DNA from: Brachyhypopomus gauderio
Taxonomy: Eukaryota; Chordata; Actinopteri; Gymnotiformes; Hypopomidae
Direction: 5' to 3'
NCBI RefSeq assembly: GCF_052324685.1
Contig: NC_135220.1
Span: 2,834,716 to 2,898,715 of the forward strand
Length of the DNA stretch: 64,000 bases
Below are positions 6,851-63,316 of the stretch, in pieces. Made by a program: the position numbers and the translations under genes. Every line of letters begins with the position of its first letter. The stretch's first letter is position 1. The notes under the pieces are model-generated. The model did not search any database. It had not been told where the DNA came from and was given only the letters and a program-made list of their open reading frames with translations.

Positions 6851-7325
6851 TGTTAGGCAGGTGGTTGCTGGCCCAGGGTGGGCAAGCTGATGTATACAGA
6901 AGAGGCTGCTGTTGACATAGAGGGTGATGTTGACAGAAGAGGCTGATTTCAGGAGAAATGGCTGCTGTAGGTAGTGGCTTAGTGCTGGCCCGTAGCTGCA
7001 GTGGTGAGCCTTGTTATTTGGGATCCATTAGGCCTTCACAGGCCTAGAGAAAAGCTGTAAAAATAGGATCTGATTGTTTTCTCAACACAATAAGGACAAT
7101 AGACCATAATGTTTATGGTGAACTACATACTAATTACTATCTGAACTCCTTTCAGGTTTGTTGTTGCCAATGATCTCCTGGCCTAACATTCCCCTTGTCC
7201 TGGTGGAGCAGTGGTTCTGTCCGCTCCAAACCCTTCACCGCTCAGGCTGCTCTGCTCCATGACAGCCTCTGCCGTCGGGAAGGACCTATTCCTACGTTCA
7301 ACATTTTCTCTCTTTCTCTGGGGGA

Positions 7326-7480
7326 GTGTCCACACAGGTGCAGGTGCACTCTGGGGTAGTGTCCACACAGGTGCAGGTGCACTCTGGGGTGGTGGCCACA
7401 CAGGTGCAGGTGCACTCTGGGGGGGTGGCCACACAGGTGCAGGTGCACTCTGGGGGAGTGGCCACGCAGGTGCACTCTGA
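7326..7480. repeat. 33-bp minisatellite, about 4.5 copies
   Basis: Units begin GTGTCCACACAGGTGCAGGT; the first two starts are 33 bases apart (7326, 7359). Because 33 is a multiple of three, several frames stay open across it, so open frames here are not evidence for a gene. Units differ by a few substitutions. Confidence 0.85.
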
Positions 7481-33960: not shown

Positions 33961-34739
33961 AATTATAGTTTGTAACAACTGCTGCTACATTTTTAGTTCT
34001 ATGTTTTGGCCAGAGAAAAAAAAAACAATAAATTTGATCTTTTTCATCTGTGATGGCTGATGGTTTATTATCAGTATCACATTAAAGTTGCGGCATATAA
34101 ACAGTAACTATAAATGCAAAGAGTTCAACAAGGGGCAAACAAAGCACAAAAGAAGTTTCATTAAATGTCTATTTATTACATTGAATCTTTATTGTATTCT
34201 ATTCTATTTATAAATAGAAACTTTAAGAGCTCAAGTCTAAACATATCCGCACTAGAGTAAACGTGAAGAGGTGTCCGCTCCTCACGTTTCATGTCTCCCT
34301 AACAACGCAGCACACGCAGCTGCTTCTGTTTGGACTCAGTCTCACGCGGCCAGAGTGGTAGTGCTCACGTCAGGTGGCCATCCCTGGGCTAAATCCAGAC
34401 TGAACCTGTTTCGCACAGAAGCACTTTGATATGCAGCCAGCAGTCTCATGGGGAGACTGGGACCAATGTCCAGTCTGCTGTGGTGAAAATGGTTCGTGTT
34501 TTGCTTAAACAAACCCAGCTTTGCTCACAGGCTGTTTGGGATTTTCAATTAAGTTTTTTTTTTTCTGAACACTGAATGAGTGGATTGAGCAACCTACTGA
34601 TGATCCTTCAATGGATGCTCAGAAACCCGCCCAGAAACGAGGATGTGATGTGAAAGCTGGTGTCCTGGTGAGCTACGTGAGCAGAGGTGGAAGTCCTGGT
34701 GCTGCAGCACTTTGGGGAGGGGTCGCTGGGGCAAGTGTG

Positions 34740-35058
34740 CTCTAATACCCCAGCTCTAATACCCCAGCTCTAATACCCCAGCTCTAATGCCCCAGCTCTA
34801 ATGCCCCAGCTCTAATACCCCAGCTCTAATGCCCAGCTCTAATACCCCAGCTCTAATGCCCCAGCTCTAATACCCCAGCTCTAATACCCCAGCTCTAATG
34901 CCCCAGCTCTAATACCCCAGCTCTAATGCCCCAGCTCTAATGCCCCAGCTCTAATGCCCCAGCTTTAATGCCCCAGCTCTAATACCCCAGCTCTAATGCC
35001 CCAGCTCTAATACCCCAGCTCTAATACCCCAGCTCTAATACCCCAGCTCTAATGCCCC
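34740..35058. repeat. 14-bp minisatellite, about 23 copies
   Basis: Unit CCCCAGCTCTAATR, where R is A or G. The order of A and G variants is irregular along the array, one unit is a base short (13 bp) and one has CTTTAAT. The copy number and near-identity suggest a variable locus. Confidence 0.93.
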
Positions 35059-51187: not shown

Positions 51188-54100
51188 CTACTTCAGGTTG
51201 AAGAAGCCCGATTTGGCCTGGGGAGCCATCAGCATTCTGGCTTGGTTCTTGTGTGTGATATGAATCTGTGGAACAGAAGTATGACATGACTCATCACAGC
51301 AGATATGTGGTTCTGCATGGCACACTAAGGCCTGGTGCGGTCTATAATCATGTGAGGGAGTGACTACAACAACCTTCATTAGATATAAATTGCATATAAT
51401 GCATAAAAACTCTGGGAGCATCACATGCAGCTCCTGTACTTACAACTAGTTATAACAAACATGGCTTCATTTCTCAAAATAAAGACACTGCAAGTCCCTC
51501 AAACACTTAAGAAAGCAGTTGTGACTTTAAACAAAGGGATGGAAGGTTACACTGACCGTACACGGAGGCTGCATCCACGGCTCCCCGTCGATCTGCATGG
51601 GTAGGGGCTTCTTCGTCCTACGGCAGAGTTAACATTAGAACAGACATGCAAAACAGAGCCATCGAGGCCATTGTCGAAGTGGTGGACCAGAAGATCTGCT
51701 ATCCATGACAAAAGAGAAGTGGCCTTTCACATGGCCTCACGTGTGAACGAACGCCCCTTTGGTGTATGCGCATGAGGAGAGTGGAGGCTGGCTCACGTGT
51801 AGGGCATGAAGACCCCTGGACGTGCCAGGACACGTTTGCTCTTTAAACACACAGAGAGGTGCACCTTCACCTCAGCTTGATTTCTGACGTACATTGCCTC
51901 AATCTTGAATCTGATTTCAGGTGCCTTACCACACTAAGGGACTTTTATAACAACTAATACTTCTAATACTAATATAAAAAGTGCAGTCCAAAAGCCTTGG
52001 TAAGACACCCCAGCCAGCAGCTGATGACCAAATACACTGCTCTGCTGGACTGTTATTTTGGAGTGTGGTGCGTGTTGTGGCTCGGTCCACCATGCCGCTC
52101 ACCTGATGGTGATCTGGGAGGTTTTGGCGAGTCGCACGGCACTCTTCAGGCCCGTGTAAATCTGACCCATCTCCATGGCTCCCTCCAATCCCACCAGCTC
52201 CACACGCTTGTCACTCATATCTACAGGCACACGCACATTCGTTGTAATTATACAACAGGGGATTGTTATTTACAAATCTAACCACCACTGTAGACACTGA
52301 GAACAAACCTGATTGTGAAATGCTATGATGCAACATTCTTTACTGGAAAGTTCTCATTTCTTAAGTACATTGTAAGGGAGTTTTTTTTCTTTTTTATTTT
52401 GATTGAGAAACAAGAAATCCTTGAAAGCATTATATTATATTCATGTCTCAAATAGTTGCAGAATGAGAAGTATGACAGGAGCACAACCCAAGCCTTCCAA
52501 TCAAACCTTGAGGGCTGACTTTTAAGACTTCTGGATCCACGATGACCTCAGGAACATCCTGGCCTGCTCGGTCACCTTTTTTGGCTTCTCCCCATAGGTT
52601 CGAGCCACCGTGCATGCTGGGAATGTTGAGAACAGCTATGCCCTCCAGGGACAGGTTGCTAAGGTCCAGCTGAATGCCACAACACTAAACAACACCGGAC
52701 AGACAGTAGTTGATGCTCTGGCTCTCTGTAAATACTCAGTTTTTGTGTCATATTTTTGAAGATAATAACAGTTAATTACATTTCTGCCTTCCTGGACGTC
52801 TGGCATTATGGGTAATTCAGAAACACCTCACCAAAGTGTCGTCCTTACCTCGATGGTGAGGCACTCCTTGAGTTTCTTGCAAGAGGCTGAAATTGTCTCT
52901 GTTGTGGCGAACTCAAAGTACCACAATTTGTTCTTCATTCTGAAGAAGGGTATGTAAACATGAATAGAGGGCATTTACACGTGAATAGAGGGTATGTAAA
53001 CATGAATAGATGGCATTTACACGTGAATAGAGGGTATGTAAACATGAATAGTAGGTCATGTAAAAAAGAAAAGCAGGTCATGTAAAAATGAACAGAAGGG
53101 TATGTAAACATTAAAATGGCATTTAAATGTGAATCAAAGAGCATACAAACATTAACCTTTAACCTTTATCTCATGGAGAGATGCAACACATCATGCAGTG
53201 CCCACTGTAGGGGCACACTTAGCCTCCCACTGCATCTCAACACGCAAGGCGGGAGTTAACTAAATTACACAACAAGAAAACCTGACAAGTGCTTCTATTG
53301 TCCAGTAAGTCTCTGGAGTAAAATATTATTCTGGTAAAATGCAATGACAAAATCACCAGTTGATGTATTAATTTCTTGCAAGTCTTGTGCTTTATACTTT
53401 GTAAGTGGGTAGTGAATGAATGGACAGTTTATGAATCATAAATTTTTTAGTAACAACACATAACAGCAACTTGTTTCACGTGGGAAGACATGGATAGAAA
53501 TAAAAAAGAATGACCTCAGGTACACAACACACCACCCACAATACAACTGAAGAAGAAGACAACATTGCCTATGCAGAGTGGAATGTAAATGCACAGTGTA
53601 AGATGATCTCAGCTGACGTGTTGTCCTGAATGGTGTGAAATGAGATGCTCACCTGCTGTTAAACTTCTGTGGATGCTTTTCTCTCATAGTGTGAAACCTG
53701 TGAGCAATCGATGCATCCTACAAAGCAGAGATGGAGCAGAGAGATGTTCTCAGTTACAGATAAACACAGATGGAGCAGAGAGATGTTCACTGTTACAGAT
53801 AAACACAGAGAGGGACCAGAGAGATGTTCTCCGTTACAGATCATTCATATATAGATAGTTCATATGTCCTACAAGCGTATCTGCTAAATCCTTATACGTG
53901 ATAGAACGTTTCGACTTTTTGCACAGCCACACTCCTGTATGTCTCATTGTTGCTACATGTTGGGGTGTTTACTGGTTATGTATTTTGTAATAATGGTTGT
54001 CTGCACTTGTGTTCTTTCCTGATGCACCGTGGCCATGGCACCGTAGCCATGGAGGACTGAGATTCAAGGTTCACTCTGCACTGGAATGACAGCGAGGCCT

Positions 54101-57100: not shown

Positions 57101-60100
57101 TTTTTAGACTAAGACAACAGGTGCTACTCATCAGTCTCTTGTGTAGTCTGTACTGGTAGAGAGTGAGAGAGTTTGACCTTTCCAGTGGTTCCAAACTACC
57201 TCTTTTTGAACAAACACTTTCACTCGACGTGTACACAGTTTCATTTCATGCAAAGGCTTCTGCGTGGTCCTGCCACACTGACCCTTCATCTCATATGGTT
57301 TGTCAGTATCTGAATACAGAGCTACGTCTGTATAGAGTACTGAATAAACTGAATTAGGCAATGCGACCTTTCACATGCAGAGAAAACTTTGAACATTTAC
57401 TTTGTTGTGTTGTTTCTTTCATGTCTTTCTCGGATTTAGCTTAATATAAAGTTAAATACAAATCTCAGTGGGGGAAATTCTTACCCTGGTCCTGGTCCAC
57501 CACTTGATAGGTTGTAAACCTGTCGAGGGTTTAACAAGTACTGGAATTTGCGAAGAACTCTGCAATGGAAAAAGTGATTCAGTGATTCATAATATCTCAT
57601 TTTATATTGAGGTCCTCTCCATAATATAGTCTTGCCAATAGAATAACACCACCAATGTTCTCAGGTTGTTTATTCTTGGAGCAGGTGCCAAGTATAGTAT
57701 AGTAAAATGAACTCAGGTGGCATATTAAATTAGTCCAAAAAGTTTGATCTTGTCTGATATTGTGGATTTCCAATCTATGGCAGTGCATTCATATGAATAA
57801 AATGGCAATCACCCTTGTAGTTCCCTGCAAAGTGGACCACACATTTTAAGAGAGATGAAAGCTTTCAGTTCAAAGGGAACTTCAAACTGCACATGGAGAA
57901 GTGGATAGGGTTTCATAACTATACAGGAAGCTCACACTTTACTGAATGTTATGTCAATATATTACGACGAGTTAAACCTGCTGGACGGTTGATTATCCAA
58001 GGGTAACAAATAAATGGAATAACGCCAGAATGTGTGTGTGTGCGCGCGCGCGCAAGTGCCATTAATATTTCATACGTGTTTGTTGAAAACTATCAGTGAT
58101 GTGGAAGTAACCTGTTCATAAAAGGTGCCAAATTAGCCTGGAAAACTAATTTAGTCTGTTTACTTTGACCCAGTTAGCAAATATTAGTTATCCCGAGGAA
58201 AATATTGGCTTTATGCAGCCGTCAAAAGAAATGAAAAAAAACCACAATGTCTTCTGTGTGATGTTGTTGCATGACATTGTGAATGAATGTATTTAATCAG
58301 CTGCGCTTCCCAGTGCCCACATTGTTTGATTAGTGTGTAGGGAATAAGGGCACCACAACGGCACTGCACAGTGACTATGAGGAATGGAACGCAGCCCGAG
58401 AGATCAGAATCATTTGCCGTATCAGTGCAGCAGCCGAGATGAGGATCATTTTCAAGGCCTCCTCACTTTAGTTTTCTCTGTGTTCAACGTTTTCCCCCTA
58501 CGCTACTGTCTACTATTTCTGCCTCATACCATTTTGTCATATCCTTGATATATTCACTGCATTTCCTGCATTACCAGTTTCTTAAGTGAACTAATTTTTA
58601 ATTTCATATAGCAGGTTTTTTTTATATCTGGTGTCAAGATCCATTTTCAAAAAGCAAAATTCACAAGCTGTTGTTTAAAAGTCTCAATACGTTTCTCAGG
58701 TTAGACTAGTTTGACATCTCTACACAACAAATTGGATATTCTGACAGGTGCCAAAATTCCTAGAGCAGAATTCACACCCCATTTATTTAACATTATTAAA
58801 TTAAAATTCAGAATTGTTTACTTTGCATTACATACAACAATCCACGATGCAAATGAATGTCAATATTCACATATGAACATGATATGTAGGCCAATGGAGA
58901 CCCCTGACTGACAGTCTTAAGCCCATAGCATACCAAGTACTACAGTGATGTTTGGACTTAAAGATATAGTTTTATCTAAAATATTTTCAAAAATATATAG
59001 ATTATTCCTTTAGAATGATTAATATGGAAGAGTATTCTGGAATTCCAGCAGGCTTGCAGAATTTTATAGCTATATAGCATAAATTATTAATCCAGATTAC
59101 TGTTTAAATTGACCATTAAAAAGGTGTAAAAAAGATACATGCAAAATGGCCTCACCTCTCACCCTGTTTGCCTCCACTTTTAGGGTTCACAAACACCAGG
59201 AGGGGATGAGTGTCACGAATAGGAATGATCTGTGTTAAGACAACAGGCATTCAGTTATACGACTCAGGCTGTGCTGACTCTGGCTAGGAGAGCCCAAAGA
59301 TTTTGCATTTGTTGATAATAATTGTTGATAATCAACATCTAATTACTTGCAAATTGTATCATTACCAACTGCACACAGCTGAAATCGGTATGATCATACT
59401 AATTTATTATTGATTCCATTGTGTACAGCGCTTTGGTCAACTTTGGTTGTGTAAGGTGCTATATAAATAAATGATGATTGATTGATGATTGATAATCCAA
59501 AACAAAGAATGAACACTGTATTCCACAGTTAGAGATACTTTATTTCACTGTAAGTAGGCTGAATATCACCGTGGACTGAGAGGTGCAGACAATTTATCTT
59601 TCCCGTCATTCAAACTGACATCTGCTTAGAGCTATGAATATGATTCCTCCCCCCAACATTTAATCTGTTACTAAATAAATACTTAAGCAAACAATTGCTG
59701 TTCCTTCCAGCCGTGGTAACACACCAAGTGCAGAGTGGCTGTAATCTAGGGGAGTTTGAATGCTGAGAGGTACCTGCAGCACCTGGCCATCAGGTGTAGT
59801 GTTGTAATCTAGGGGAGTTTGAATGCTGAGAGGTACCTGCAGCACCTGGCCATCAGGTGTAGTGTTGTAATCTAGGGGAGTTTGAATGCTGAGAGGTACC
59901 TGCAGCACCTGGCCATCAGGTGTAGTGTTGTAATCTAGGGGAGTTTGAATGCTGAGAGGTACCTGCAGCACCTGGCCATCAGGTGTAGTGTTGTAATCTA
60001 GGGGAGTTTGAATGCTGAGAGGTACCTGCAGCACCTGGCCATCAGGTGTAGTGTTGTAATCTAGGGGAGTTTGAATGCTGAGAGGTACCTGCAGCACCTG

Positions 60101-62720
60101 GCCATCAGGTGTAGTGTTGTAATCTAGGGGAGTTTGAATGCTGAGAGGTACCTGCAGCACCTGGCCATCAGGTGTAGTGTTGTAATCTAGGGGAGTTTGA
60201 ATGCTGAGAGGTACCTGCAGCACCTGGCCATCAGGTGTAGTGTTGTGCTCAGAGTCGTCTGCCCCCCCTGAGCAGCCGTTCTTTATGCAGTTTGCCCTCT
60301 CCTGAAAACCAGAAGAAGAGCAGTAAGGTAGTATGTAAATGAGATGAATAACAGGAAGTGGTATTAGCAAGACAGAGTAATTCAATACAGTTGTCCATAT
60401 CATGCTATACGAGTACTACTTCTCTTGTTATTCAAGCAAGTTTTTTTTTCCCTTTCCCACAGCCTTAAAAAAGAACTGACGTCAGCATTACGCATTGAGA
60501 CCTCCATTAAGTTATACACAGGGGGGCTTCAAACACAGGGCATCCTTATATTATGAGGACATACTTCTGTACCGCTCATATCCCCTAGCTAGTCTACTAA
60601 AATTACTTAAGTTTACTGGACACTTTCAGCATGGTGTCTGGATATAAAGTCAACCTCGAGAAACATGAGCTAATACCTATAAATATGGAAACCCAGAAGA
60701 CTGTCTATAATTCATAGCCTTTTAAAATAAACAGAACATTTAAATACTTAGAATTTGGCTTACACACAAGTTAATAAACTTTTACATTCTTTACAAAGCC
60801 ATTTTTTGCACAAACAAAACTTCCACTATCATATGGAGATTGGCTAACTATTACAATTGATGCAGTGTCCAGATCTTTGTATTTGTTTCAAATGTCTCCA
60901 TTTCTTTGAGAAAATCATTTTTTATTTATATAGATAAACCCAATTTTCATGGAATACATAAGGATATATTACACAGACACTGTGTTGGACACATGACAGA
61001 TTAGCTGCACCCAACTTTCAACATCACTACTATAATATTACTACAATAACATTAGGGTTTCTTTGCAGTATACATATCCCAAAATGTTCAAGTAATCTCT
61101 AGGTGGCCGACACTGGAGATGTCTGCCCATCCTGTGACTCGGCCTCTCTGAAGGCATGGCGGCTCACCGAGTTGCCCTCGTCTGAACCCATATACCCGTC
61201 TACTCCCCAAAATACAGCTGTGAAACATCTGCTCAAGAGAGCAATTTCACGTAATGGCTTCTCTGCTCATAGCTCAATAATGAAAAATTCCATGTTTGCA
61301 ACCTCTATTACTGGTTCTGCCTTCAAATGTTGGGCTGGGCAATGATTTACTGCATTAATAAAGACTTGGGCATTGGTGACACATCCTTCAAGCAGTGAAG
61401 ATAACAGTTCAAGATTCCCCACTCACATTTGCTCAGGTACTTGCAGCTTTACAGTGTTCATCATTAGGCTACACTGAATTCCCATGTCTACCACCCTTAT
61501 TCCTCCTGGACAAACTACTGAATGTTAATACTCTGTCAAAGATAGTCACAGAGCTTAAGTCATAGAGTTTGCACTGGTCCAAGGCAAGACTAAATAAAGT
61601 CTTAACTTAAAGTCTTGAGCAAGGTGGTGACGTGAACCGATGTGTGATACGTATAACATGACAGCAGATACTCTCTCATGTATCATTAGTTTTGTTTCCG
61701 GGGATTTCAGGATATCAGTTCAGGACAACTGAAGTATTATAAAATTAAGGAGTGTGCTCTTTCAGCAGGCATGTATTGGTACTGAAACACAAAGGAACCT
61801 CCCACCTAGGCTACATTTAAACATTTTGGAAAATGTTTCAAAAAGCTTATGAAAACTGTGACATACTTTTTTGATAATGTTGTTGTTTTATGTCTCTTTT
61901 TTTTTTAACAACAAATGGGTTTGGTGGAATAACCCTAGCATTTTTTGCTAATGAGTAGGCTACTGATTGTTTGGGGAGCGGACTCTGAAGAAGCAGAAAT
62001 CCTTGCAACCCAATTCCTGAAATCCTTTGATTTCAGGAATCCTTAGACGAAGATAAAGAAAGAGGTATGTTTTATTTATCTGGTGTAACACACACTTCTA
62101 CTTTCTAATATTAAAGGAGATCACTAGCCGGGTGGTTAGATTTGTAGTTTTTAGACATTTAGCTCAGCCTCGTTCATTGAGGACTTGTTCGTCGGTGCCC
62201 TCTGGTGGTCTGCAGTGGGAGACCAGGGTCAAGCCTGGCATAAAGCAGCTCTAGCGGTACCTTCATGACAGGGTATACGGCCCATGGTGGTAAAATGTGA
62301 TCTCTCAGCGGGCCGCAGTTACACTCTGACGGCTTCTGGTTAGCACACTCCCCATGTCGCTGTGAAAAGATGGCCAAAAATAATCAGTCATTGATGAATG
62401 CAAACATAGCTTCATTTGTCTTCGGCTGAACTGTGGCCGTATAAAACAGGAAGAGGGAGGGAAGTGCAGTTAGTTCTTTACATTGCTAGACCAAAGTGCT
62501 TGGAGCGTTGCACGTTGGCGCGTGTTGACGGCTGCTCTGTGGTTGTGTGTACGACTCCCCCTACAGGTGAAAGGGAAGCAGTGCACTCACCATTGTGTGG
62601 CACCACACGCAGCGTTTGCCTGTGAGACCCTGCAGACTCTTAATCTTCTTCTGACACCTGTCACACTTCCCAGAGTCACAGTTCCCACTCACCCAGTCGT
62701 GAGATGAAACCTTGGCAAGC

Positions 62721-62774
<54 letters not shown>

Positions 62775-63316
62775 AGTGTACACTTCATTTGCAAGCTACA
62801 TGCACCCTGGTGTCACAGGAAGTGGTGGAGTGATGACATGCTGTCGTTTAGTAGGGACACTCCTACTGGGGAAAATGAAAACACACTTCCACCGAGTGCT
62901 CAAATTCAACAGGAAGGGCTGCACCGCTCGGGCATCCTCACCCCAGCGTCCTTCTTGGACTTGACGTAGGTGCGGATGCACGGATCCGGGTTCCGGTTGG
63001 CACAGCGCCCGTGCACGGTGTACTTACAGCCTGCAGAAGGAGGAGACAGAGATGATCGGGAGGTGAAGTGGGGCGGGGCAGGGTGGGGCATGGGGGTGGG
63101 GTTAAGATATCTGGGCAGGGCTACACCCAGGTGGGAGGGGCATGCTTTGGATGGAGGACGGAGGTGGGGGGGGGGGGGGGGGACGTCGGGGTACTGACAG
63201 GTGCAACAGAGGCCCTGTTTGCGCAGTCCCAGTAACATGCTCTGGCACACGTTACAATAGACGGGCCGGTTGAAATGCTTCATCCTCCACAGGTGCTGTC
63301 CATCCTTGTGGGTCAC
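51188..63316 (-). CDS. dgka: Diacylglycerol kinase, type I (alpha-like), 3' sixteen exons
   Basis: Phosphorylates diacylglycerol to phosphatidic acid at membranes. Exons on -: 63316-63199, 63030-62942, 62710-62591, 62359-62261, 60301-60215, 59229-59156, 57559-57485, 55635-55550, 55069-54980, 54307-54147, 53717-53653, 52939-52849, 52684-52507, 52220-52103, 51617-51557, 51265-51188; all phases agree, 529 residues to the stop. Two C1 domains come first ([17 protein letters not shown].., [20 protein letters not shown]), then a linker, the catalytic domain ([37 protein letters not shown]) and the accessory domain ([47 protein letters not shown]). The EF-hand part should lie past the right edge. 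CDRCQKKI and the 12q13-like neighbourhood favour DGKA over DGKB/G, although the C-terminus is intermediate. The exon ending at 60215 carries eight tandem donors. A solo LTR and L1 fragment lie in introns. Confidence 0.88.
52948..53150. repeat. 21/42-bp minisatellite next to a dgka acceptor
   Basis: Alternating 21-bp half units GGGTATGTAAACATGAATAG(A) and GGGCATTTACACGTGAATAG(A); full units start at 52948, 52990 and 53032, then decay. The array starts eight bases upstream of the exon that begins at 52939. Confidence 0.88.
53726..53842. repeat. 39-bp minisatellite, three copies, next to a dgka acceptor
   Basis: Units contain GAGCAGAGAGATGTTCTCAG followed by TTACAGATAAACACA. The array begins about nine bases upstream of the exon starting at 53717. 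Confidence 0.85.
55745..55875. repeat. Retroelement tail fragment
   Basis: TCTTTGAGCATTGTGGAAAG followed by CGCTATATAAA and an ATT repeat is a common fish LINE/SINE 3' end. TTTGCTCTTTAAATAAA is duplicated just before it. It lies in a dgka intron. Confidence 0.6.
56098..56489 (+). mobile_element. Solo LTR (392 bp)
   Basis: Starts TGTCAGGACC and ends ATTACA (TG..CA), flanked on both sides by the 5-bp direct repeat GATAT (56093-56097 and 56490-56494). A TATTTAAG box near 56168 and AATAAA at 56433-56438 are where an LTR promoter and poly(A) signal belong. No internal retroviral or retrotransposon genes adjoin it, so it is a solo LTR left by recombination. It sits in a dgka intron in antisense orientation to the gene. 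Confidence 0.85.
58027..58054. repeat. (TG)n(CG)n tract
   Basis: GTGTGTGTGTG then CGCGCGCGCGC: alternating purine-pyrimidine sequence able to adopt Z-DNA, in a dgka intron. Confidence 0.85.
59395..59490. repeat. Retroelement tail fragment
   Basis: GTACAGCGCTTTGGTCAAC through GGTGCTATATAAATAAATGA to a GATT repeat: a common fish LINE/SINE tail with short tandem target-like repeats. Confidence 0.6.
59741..60244 (-). repeat. dgka: Eight-copy 63-bp tandem repeat carrying the dgka splice donor
   Basis: Eight units, with no difference I could find by eye, start at 59741, 59804, 59867, 59930, 59993, 60056, 60119 and 60182. On the transcribed strand each unit holds the last 30 exon bases, the donor CTGCAG|GTACCTCT, and 33 bases that would normally be intron. 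Candidate exon ends are therefore 60215, 60152, 60089, 60026, 59963, 59900, 59837 and 59774. Read through, every unit encodes the same 21 residues, [10 protein letters not shown] plus [11 protein letters not shown], with no stop, and 63 keeps the frame, so all eight donors are compatible with the next exon at 59229. Confidence 0.95.
60600..61625 (+). mobile_element. Degraded L1-type LINE fragment
   Basis: Translation with frame changes and stops gives [20 protein letters not shown], then [26 protein letters not shown] and later [19 protein letters not shown]: the order of motifs at the C-terminal end of L1/Tx1 reverse transcriptases. It lies in a dgka intron in antisense orientation. Confidence 0.72.
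62727..62771. repeat. (CA)n next to a dgka acceptor
   Basis: About 22 CA units; in the transcript (TG)n, ending about 17 bases before the acceptor of the second C1 exon (62710). Confidence 0.95.
63166..63182. repeat. G17 run in dgka intron
   Basis: Seventeen G about 17 bases inside the intron after the first C1 exon (ends 63199); poly(C) in the transcript. Confidence 0.95.

Follow-up and report, generated by a model that had tools for sequence, protein, structure and literature searches.

At the locus described here eight identical splice donors occur naturally in one gene, and the question is which of them ends the exon and whether the others alter the protein. The gene, dgkaa, encodes a lipid-signalling enzyme of the weakly electric fish Brachyhypopomus gauderio, and it lies in a stretch of 64,000 nucleotides of contig NC_135220.1, the whole of which is called the window below. 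The arrangement is a natural experiment on the choice of the spliceosome among eight donors of identical local sequence, all of which are read in frame. Because of this common frame, nonsense-mediated decay would not hide the use of any donor, unlike in human ABCA7. The locus bears on whether cross-exon proximity alone fixes donor choice and, should the copy number prove variable, on whether a kinase linker can be extended stepwise by a repeat. The array is probably a young minisatellite that arose from one donor-spanning duplication, in which donor 1 dominates, copies 2-8 leave as intron and the protein is unchanged at 724 aa.

The gene and its linker exon

The gene on the minus strand is diacylglycerol kinase alpha a (dgkaa, or dgka). 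Its model consists of 16 exons running from 63316 to 51188, the first of which ends at 63199, and the joined translation is open to the stop codon. The reconstructed protein has 529 aa, in which Pfam recognizes C1_1 (two stretches), DAGK_cat (residues 180-285) and DAGK_acc. In a protein search, all 529 reconstructed residues matched P0001, diacylglycerol kinase, alpha a, of B. gauderio (724 aa), with 100% identity. The comparison with the window covered P0001 from its C1 domains onward. The search scored 7980 proteins, of which 5373 passed the threshold, and the best 120 of these 5373 were examined. None of the solved structures matched the linker; all 22 structural matches are in the C1 part.

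The first-pass annotation had assigned this strand to dgka, with exons starting at 60301 and 59229, and had placed the exon in question in the linker that joins the C1 domains to the catalytic domain. The gene and the strand are correct; the two exon starts agree with the rebuilt gene model and with P0001, and the description of the exon is right. The features of this region are given in Table 1.

Table 1. Coordinates of the dgkaa linker exon, its introns, the 63-bp array and the splice donors within the window.
Feature	Position	Strand	Description	Basis
Linker exon	60215..60301	-	87 nt, both ends in phase 0; terminates at donor 1	Gene model; identical in P0001
Next exon	59156..59229	-	74 nt, last codon split, start of catalytic domain	Gene model; Pfam DAGK_cat
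Upstream intron	60302..62260	-	1959 nt	Coordinate arithmetic
Downstream intron	59230..60214	-	985 nt when cut from donor 1; 544 nt from donor 8	Coordinate arithmetic
63-bp array	59740..60246	-	Eight identical units + 3 nt (507 bp)	TRF; unit comparison
ACA common to both array edges	60244..60246, 59742-59740	-	Microhomology	Edge sequence comparison
Donor 1	60209..60217	-	CAG/GTACCT, first base of GT at 60214	Junction present in P0001
Donors 2-8	59768..60154	-	First base of GT at 60151, 60088, 60025, 59962, 59899, 59836, 59773	Sequence positions

With donor k the exon would measure 87 + 63(k-1) nt, and the protein would gain 21(k-1) residues. Donor 1 has a sequence of its own, GAGCACAACAC, within ~40 nt upstream of its junction; the later donors are preceded by GATTACAACAC. 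A second in-frame GT, which is weaker (CAG/GTGCTG), occurs 9 nt upstream of each donor, at 60223 and every 63 bp from there down to 59782. Their predicted accessibility is far below that of the main donor.

Structure of the array

Tandem Repeats Finder (TRF) describes the array, 59740-60246 on the minus strand, as having a period of 63, 8.0 copies, 100% matches and no indels. Direct comparison of units 1-8 likewise found no differences from unit 1. The length of the array is 8 x 63 + 3 nt. Each unit is made of the last 32 nt of the 87-nt exon and the first 31 nt of the intron, and is thus neither wholly exonic (32/63 nt) nor wholly intronic (31/63 nt). The units extend to the exon's own donor, and both the donor GT and AGGT (in CTGCAGGTACCT) are found in all eight. 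The donor string CTGCAGGTACCTCTCAGCATTC, a 22-mer sought with up to three mismatches, occurs eight times in the window, always perfectly, always in the array and always on the minus strand; at the same tolerance the maximum in 100 dinucleotide shuffles was 0 per shuffle. The TRF table of the window has 43 rows, 25 of them with a period of at least 10, and among those 25 the dgkaa array alone has more than three copies at 100%. The reading frame across the array is open and stop-free, each unit reading as 21 residues.

The first-pass annotation had seen an eight-copy, 63-bp array that straddles the exon-intron border, has an identical donor in each copy and is built of a unit that is a multiple of three and lacks a stop. 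The array is real and each of these properties was borne out. The range of 0-147 residues given for the possible products is also arithmetically correct (7 x 21). The coordinates, 59741-60244, did locate the array, but its ends were misplaced by one and two bases.

The units were also considered as mini-exons, and this was rejected. The best AG available to them, CAAACTCCCCTAG (TAG, 0.65 pyrimidine), is within the range of the gene's real acceptors (0.47-0.94), on its weaker side, but the resulting pieces of 35 nt would be out of frame, and only 28 nt separate a donor from where the following AG of this kind ends.

Origin of the array

The array is preceded by ...GAGC, begins with ACAACAC and ends with ...GATTACA, after which comes GCCACT. 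The three bases in excess of eight units are there because both edges share ACA. The shared ACA and the length of eight units plus three bases fit a tandem duplication at a 3-bp microhomology, which would have been followed by unequal exchange or slippage. The founding step would have been one tandem duplication with breakpoints in the shared ACA, spanning the donor of the linker exon by chance. Later, the young minisatellite would have been amplified to its eight identical units. The lack of divergence among the units means that the expansion was recent or that the units were homogenized, unless the assembly is in error; the first reading of the sequence had proposed a recent expansion, which is a fair inference from this lack of divergence. 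A dN/dS comparison among the copies is impossible with 0 differences.

The open frame is not evidence that the repeat has been selected for coding, because 16% of simulated duplications across dgkaa donors (n=200,000) had a length divisible by three and were also stop-free, the length alone being divisible by three in 33%. In-frame openness was rejected as a selection signal, since about one in six simulated duplications has the same property and since seven of the 210 retrieved proteins described below also continue in frame beyond the end of this exon.

Protein evidence for donor 1

P0001 joins TTPDGQVLQ straight to IIPIRDT, which is the donor 1 junction, and its listed name carries no isoform number. 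The entry may be a computed model; the cluster to which it belongs has 10 members, and the junction was read in P0001. Among the best 120 of the 5373 relatives, the exon-end motif TTP(D/E)Gx(V/I)L(Q/R/V) in its strict form is present in 90, and nine have ITPDG or NTPDG instead. Donor 1 therefore looks like the ancestral exon end. As for the remainder of the 120, two skip the linker exon cleanly and 19 are models with a differing stretch. P0047, the one Electrophorus model noted among the best 120, lacks the linker exon and is uninformative on the array.

Eleven 5-mers are specific to the repeat, and none of them occurs in any of the 210 retrieved proteins, comprising these 120 and another 90 obtained with a short one-unit query; the 90 taken by themselves likewise contain none. 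The unit 5-mers YNTTP and QVLQV are present in seven of the 120 listed relatives, at ordinary exon-end positions. A search scored on the repeat alone covered 7998 candidates, limited to proteins of ~479-1524 aa and run with no positive control, and gave none at E <= 0.001. These negative results carry moderate weight because of the missing control and the limited lengths of the candidates, and because short-read assemblies may break at a 63-bp repeat. Seven of the 210 proteins (P0017, P0121, P0124, P0127, P0188, P0193 and P0198) read past the end of the linker exon into an apparent in-frame intron.

Splicing context

The introns of 1959 nt before the linker exon and 985 to 544 nt after it suggest exon definition, which according to PMC9225289 takes over at introns of 200-250 nt; both flanking introns exceed this range. 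The same source reports that the upstream donor is preferred where near-equal donors are flanked by long introns, and that in minigenes with a pair of identical strong donors all splicing went through the upstream member (PMC9225289). Where the donors were not matched for strength, each of the four intron classes showed greater use of the downstream one. When the identical donors were weak, the exon was preferentially skipped in the larger constructs L and XL, whereas M and S retained use of the upstream site (PMC9225289).

The dgkaa donor CAG/GTACCT is middling to weak. It is the fifth lowest of the 15 donors of the gene by a simple matrix, and the seventh weakest of the 15 in its pairing with U1. 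Given this strength and the behavior of the weak-donor constructs, skipping of the exon, which would be in frame, is a real alternative.

The predicted accessibility is highest at donor 1 (5.2e-3), which has hardly any lead over donor 8 (4.9e-3), and ranges from 1.1e-3 to 2.8e-3 at donors 2-7. RNA structure was rejected as a donor selector, the eight donors differing less than 5-fold in predicted accessibility. The sequence AGGUACCU within the donor is self-complementary, and in the predicted folds pairing joins the donor of unit 1 to that of unit 2 when two units are folded, and to that of unit 3 when three units are folded.

As the best explanation of the observed sequence, gene model, unit identity, open frame, shared ACA and P0001 junction, we infer the origin given above, exon definition and the predominant use of donor 1. 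The 87-nt exon would be recognized by cross-exon definition starting at its own acceptor, and copies 2-8 would be removed as ordinary intron. Use of donor 2 (+21 residues) or exon skipping (-29 residues, in frame) may account for a minor share of transcripts, and it is favored that the +21-residue isoform is minor at most. The structure is most likely neutral at the protein level, with one working donor and seven intronic look-alikes.

Alternative explanations

The first-pass annotation regarded the copies as a dial for both protein length and splicing. Several donors would then be used appreciably, the linker would gain 0, 21, 42 and up to 147 residues, and copy number would tune the mixture. 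The eight donors are indeed identical, in phase 0 and joined by an open frame, and the resulting isoforms would be spared nonsense-mediated decay, unlike those of ABCA7, because there is no frameshift. Moreover, the length of the linker exon varies among fishes (25-30 residues in 17 of 20 examples, with two reading 53 and one unparsed). However, the use of donor 1 in P0001, the failure of the repeat-targeted search and of the 210 retrieved proteins to yield a repeat-bearing isoform, the preference of exon definition for the first of equal donors and the share of simulated duplications with an open frame all speak against appreciable use of the others. Thus the 0-147-residue dial is possible but unsupported, and we consider it unlikely. 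Predominant use of the intron-proximal donor 8 would make the entire array coding and lengthen the principal protein by 147 residues. This agrees with the open frame and with the intron-centric proximity rule that PMC9225289 attributes to Reed and Maniatis. It is very improbable, given that P0001 lacks the repeat and no repeat-bearing protein came from the repeat-scored search, and that a 528-nt exon between introns of 1959 and 544 nt is outside the range of intron definition described in PMC9225289.

The array might instead act mainly by cutting splicing efficiency, copy number tuning the skipping of the linker exon or of the next one, either through donor-donor pairing by the self-complementary AGGUACCU or through U1 being drawn to dead ends. 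This would accord with the mutual pairing of donors in the predicted two- and three-unit folds, with the lower predicted accessibility of donors 2-7 compared to donor 1, and with the ABCA7 VNTR, the length of which is reported to raise skipping of the next exon (PMC5954066). Skipping of the 87-nt linker exon keeps the frame, and the 120 listed fish models include two from which it is cleanly absent. Both of these, however, are unverified models from Hucho hucho, a species not known to carry the array, and the predicted accessibilities of the array donors are within the range of the other donors of the gene (4e-7 to 4e-2); such a dosage effect is unlikely. A combination of these ideas, in which the copy number of the eight in-frame donors sets both linker length and, by mutual AGGUACCU pairing, exon inclusion, would make the array an evolvable splice dial specific to the individual; it is improbable. 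An erroneous copy number in the assembly, with a different true number of units, could overlap with any other explanation, and a copying error would also produce perfect identity over 507 bp. The B. gauderio protein is listed on a 25-Mb contig, though, which suggests a long-read assembly able to span the 507 bp, and the 3-nt remainder and the shared ACA are of the kind expected from a genuine tandem duplication. Such an error is also judged improbable.

Neighboring repeats

Two more minisatellites are situated close to dgkaa exons. One, at 52947-53111, is a 21/42-bp repeat (~7.7 copies of 21 bp) located 7 nt from the acceptor end of exon 52939; the other, at 53726-53841, is a 39-bp repeat (2.9 copies) located 8 nt from exon 53717. 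Three of the four TRF arrays in dgkaa with a period of at least 10 overlap an exon or are within 10 nt of one, and a post hoc placement test gave ~1.3% for three or more arrays at exon edges. Elsewhere in the window there is a 33-bp array at 7316-7474 (4.8 copies, 95% alike), which is open in several frames on both strands, and a 14-bp array at 34739-35058 (~23 copies, 94% alike).

Comparison with known systems

Tandem duplication of a whole donor with in-frame intronic coding had been called unusual in the first-pass annotation; a repeat with a splice donor in it is not without precedent. In intron 18 of human ABCA7, a VNTR of 25-bp units, present in about 12 to 427 copies in people, starts at the donor GT of exon 18 (PMC5954066). 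As in dgkaa, the tandem repeat includes the exon's donor GT, and in ABCA7 splicing also takes place at the donor of the following unit. Such splicing, which retains one unit, amounts to 2 +/- 1%, the product being lowered by nonsense-mediated decay (PMC5954066). Since this figure refers to an out-of-frame product, the true use is probably higher. VNTR length and skipping of the following exon are correlated (PMC5954066). ABCA7 shows that a natural donor array can leave the first donor in charge. The units of the two arrays are different in their makeup. According to the description in PMC5954066, the ABCA7 unit is wholly intronic, 25 bp long, out of frame and slightly variable, whereas the dgkaa unit has 32 exonic nt in its 63 bp, is in frame and is identical in all copies. 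Thus the dgkaa units resemble an ABCA7-type array in reaching the exon's own donor and in having a GT each, but not in being wholly intronic.

Three other systems have features in common with dgkaa. The duplicated segment in a potato RdRp gene, as reported in PMC4974935, also extends over an exon-intron border and takes in a splice site; there, however, it was the acceptor side that was duplicated and the outcome was a new intron, whereas in dgkaa the donor side is present in eight copies. Intron gain in fission yeast, as reported in PMC3629103, likewise involves tandem units that each have a potential splice site (proto-splice sites), but these were exonic repeats that turned into introns, and the units are not fully identical, in contrast to those of dgkaa. 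The Rogers model of intron gain has AGGT in the duplicated segment, which is found in dgkaa, and a wholly exonic segment, which is not, 31 of the 63 nt being intronic. For a new intron between copies, which the model also expects, the TAG mentioned above would again give out-of-frame pieces of 35 nt. In the minigenes of PMC9225289 identical donors vie for one acceptor, as they do in dgkaa, although those are two artificial donors and these are eight natural ones. A search of the open-licence literature found no report of the dgkaa array in fish or of any in-frame donor array. Among known systems the human ABCA7 VNTR comes nearest, and from it the dgkaa array differs in that it straddles the exon-intron border, is in frame and is perfectly uniform.
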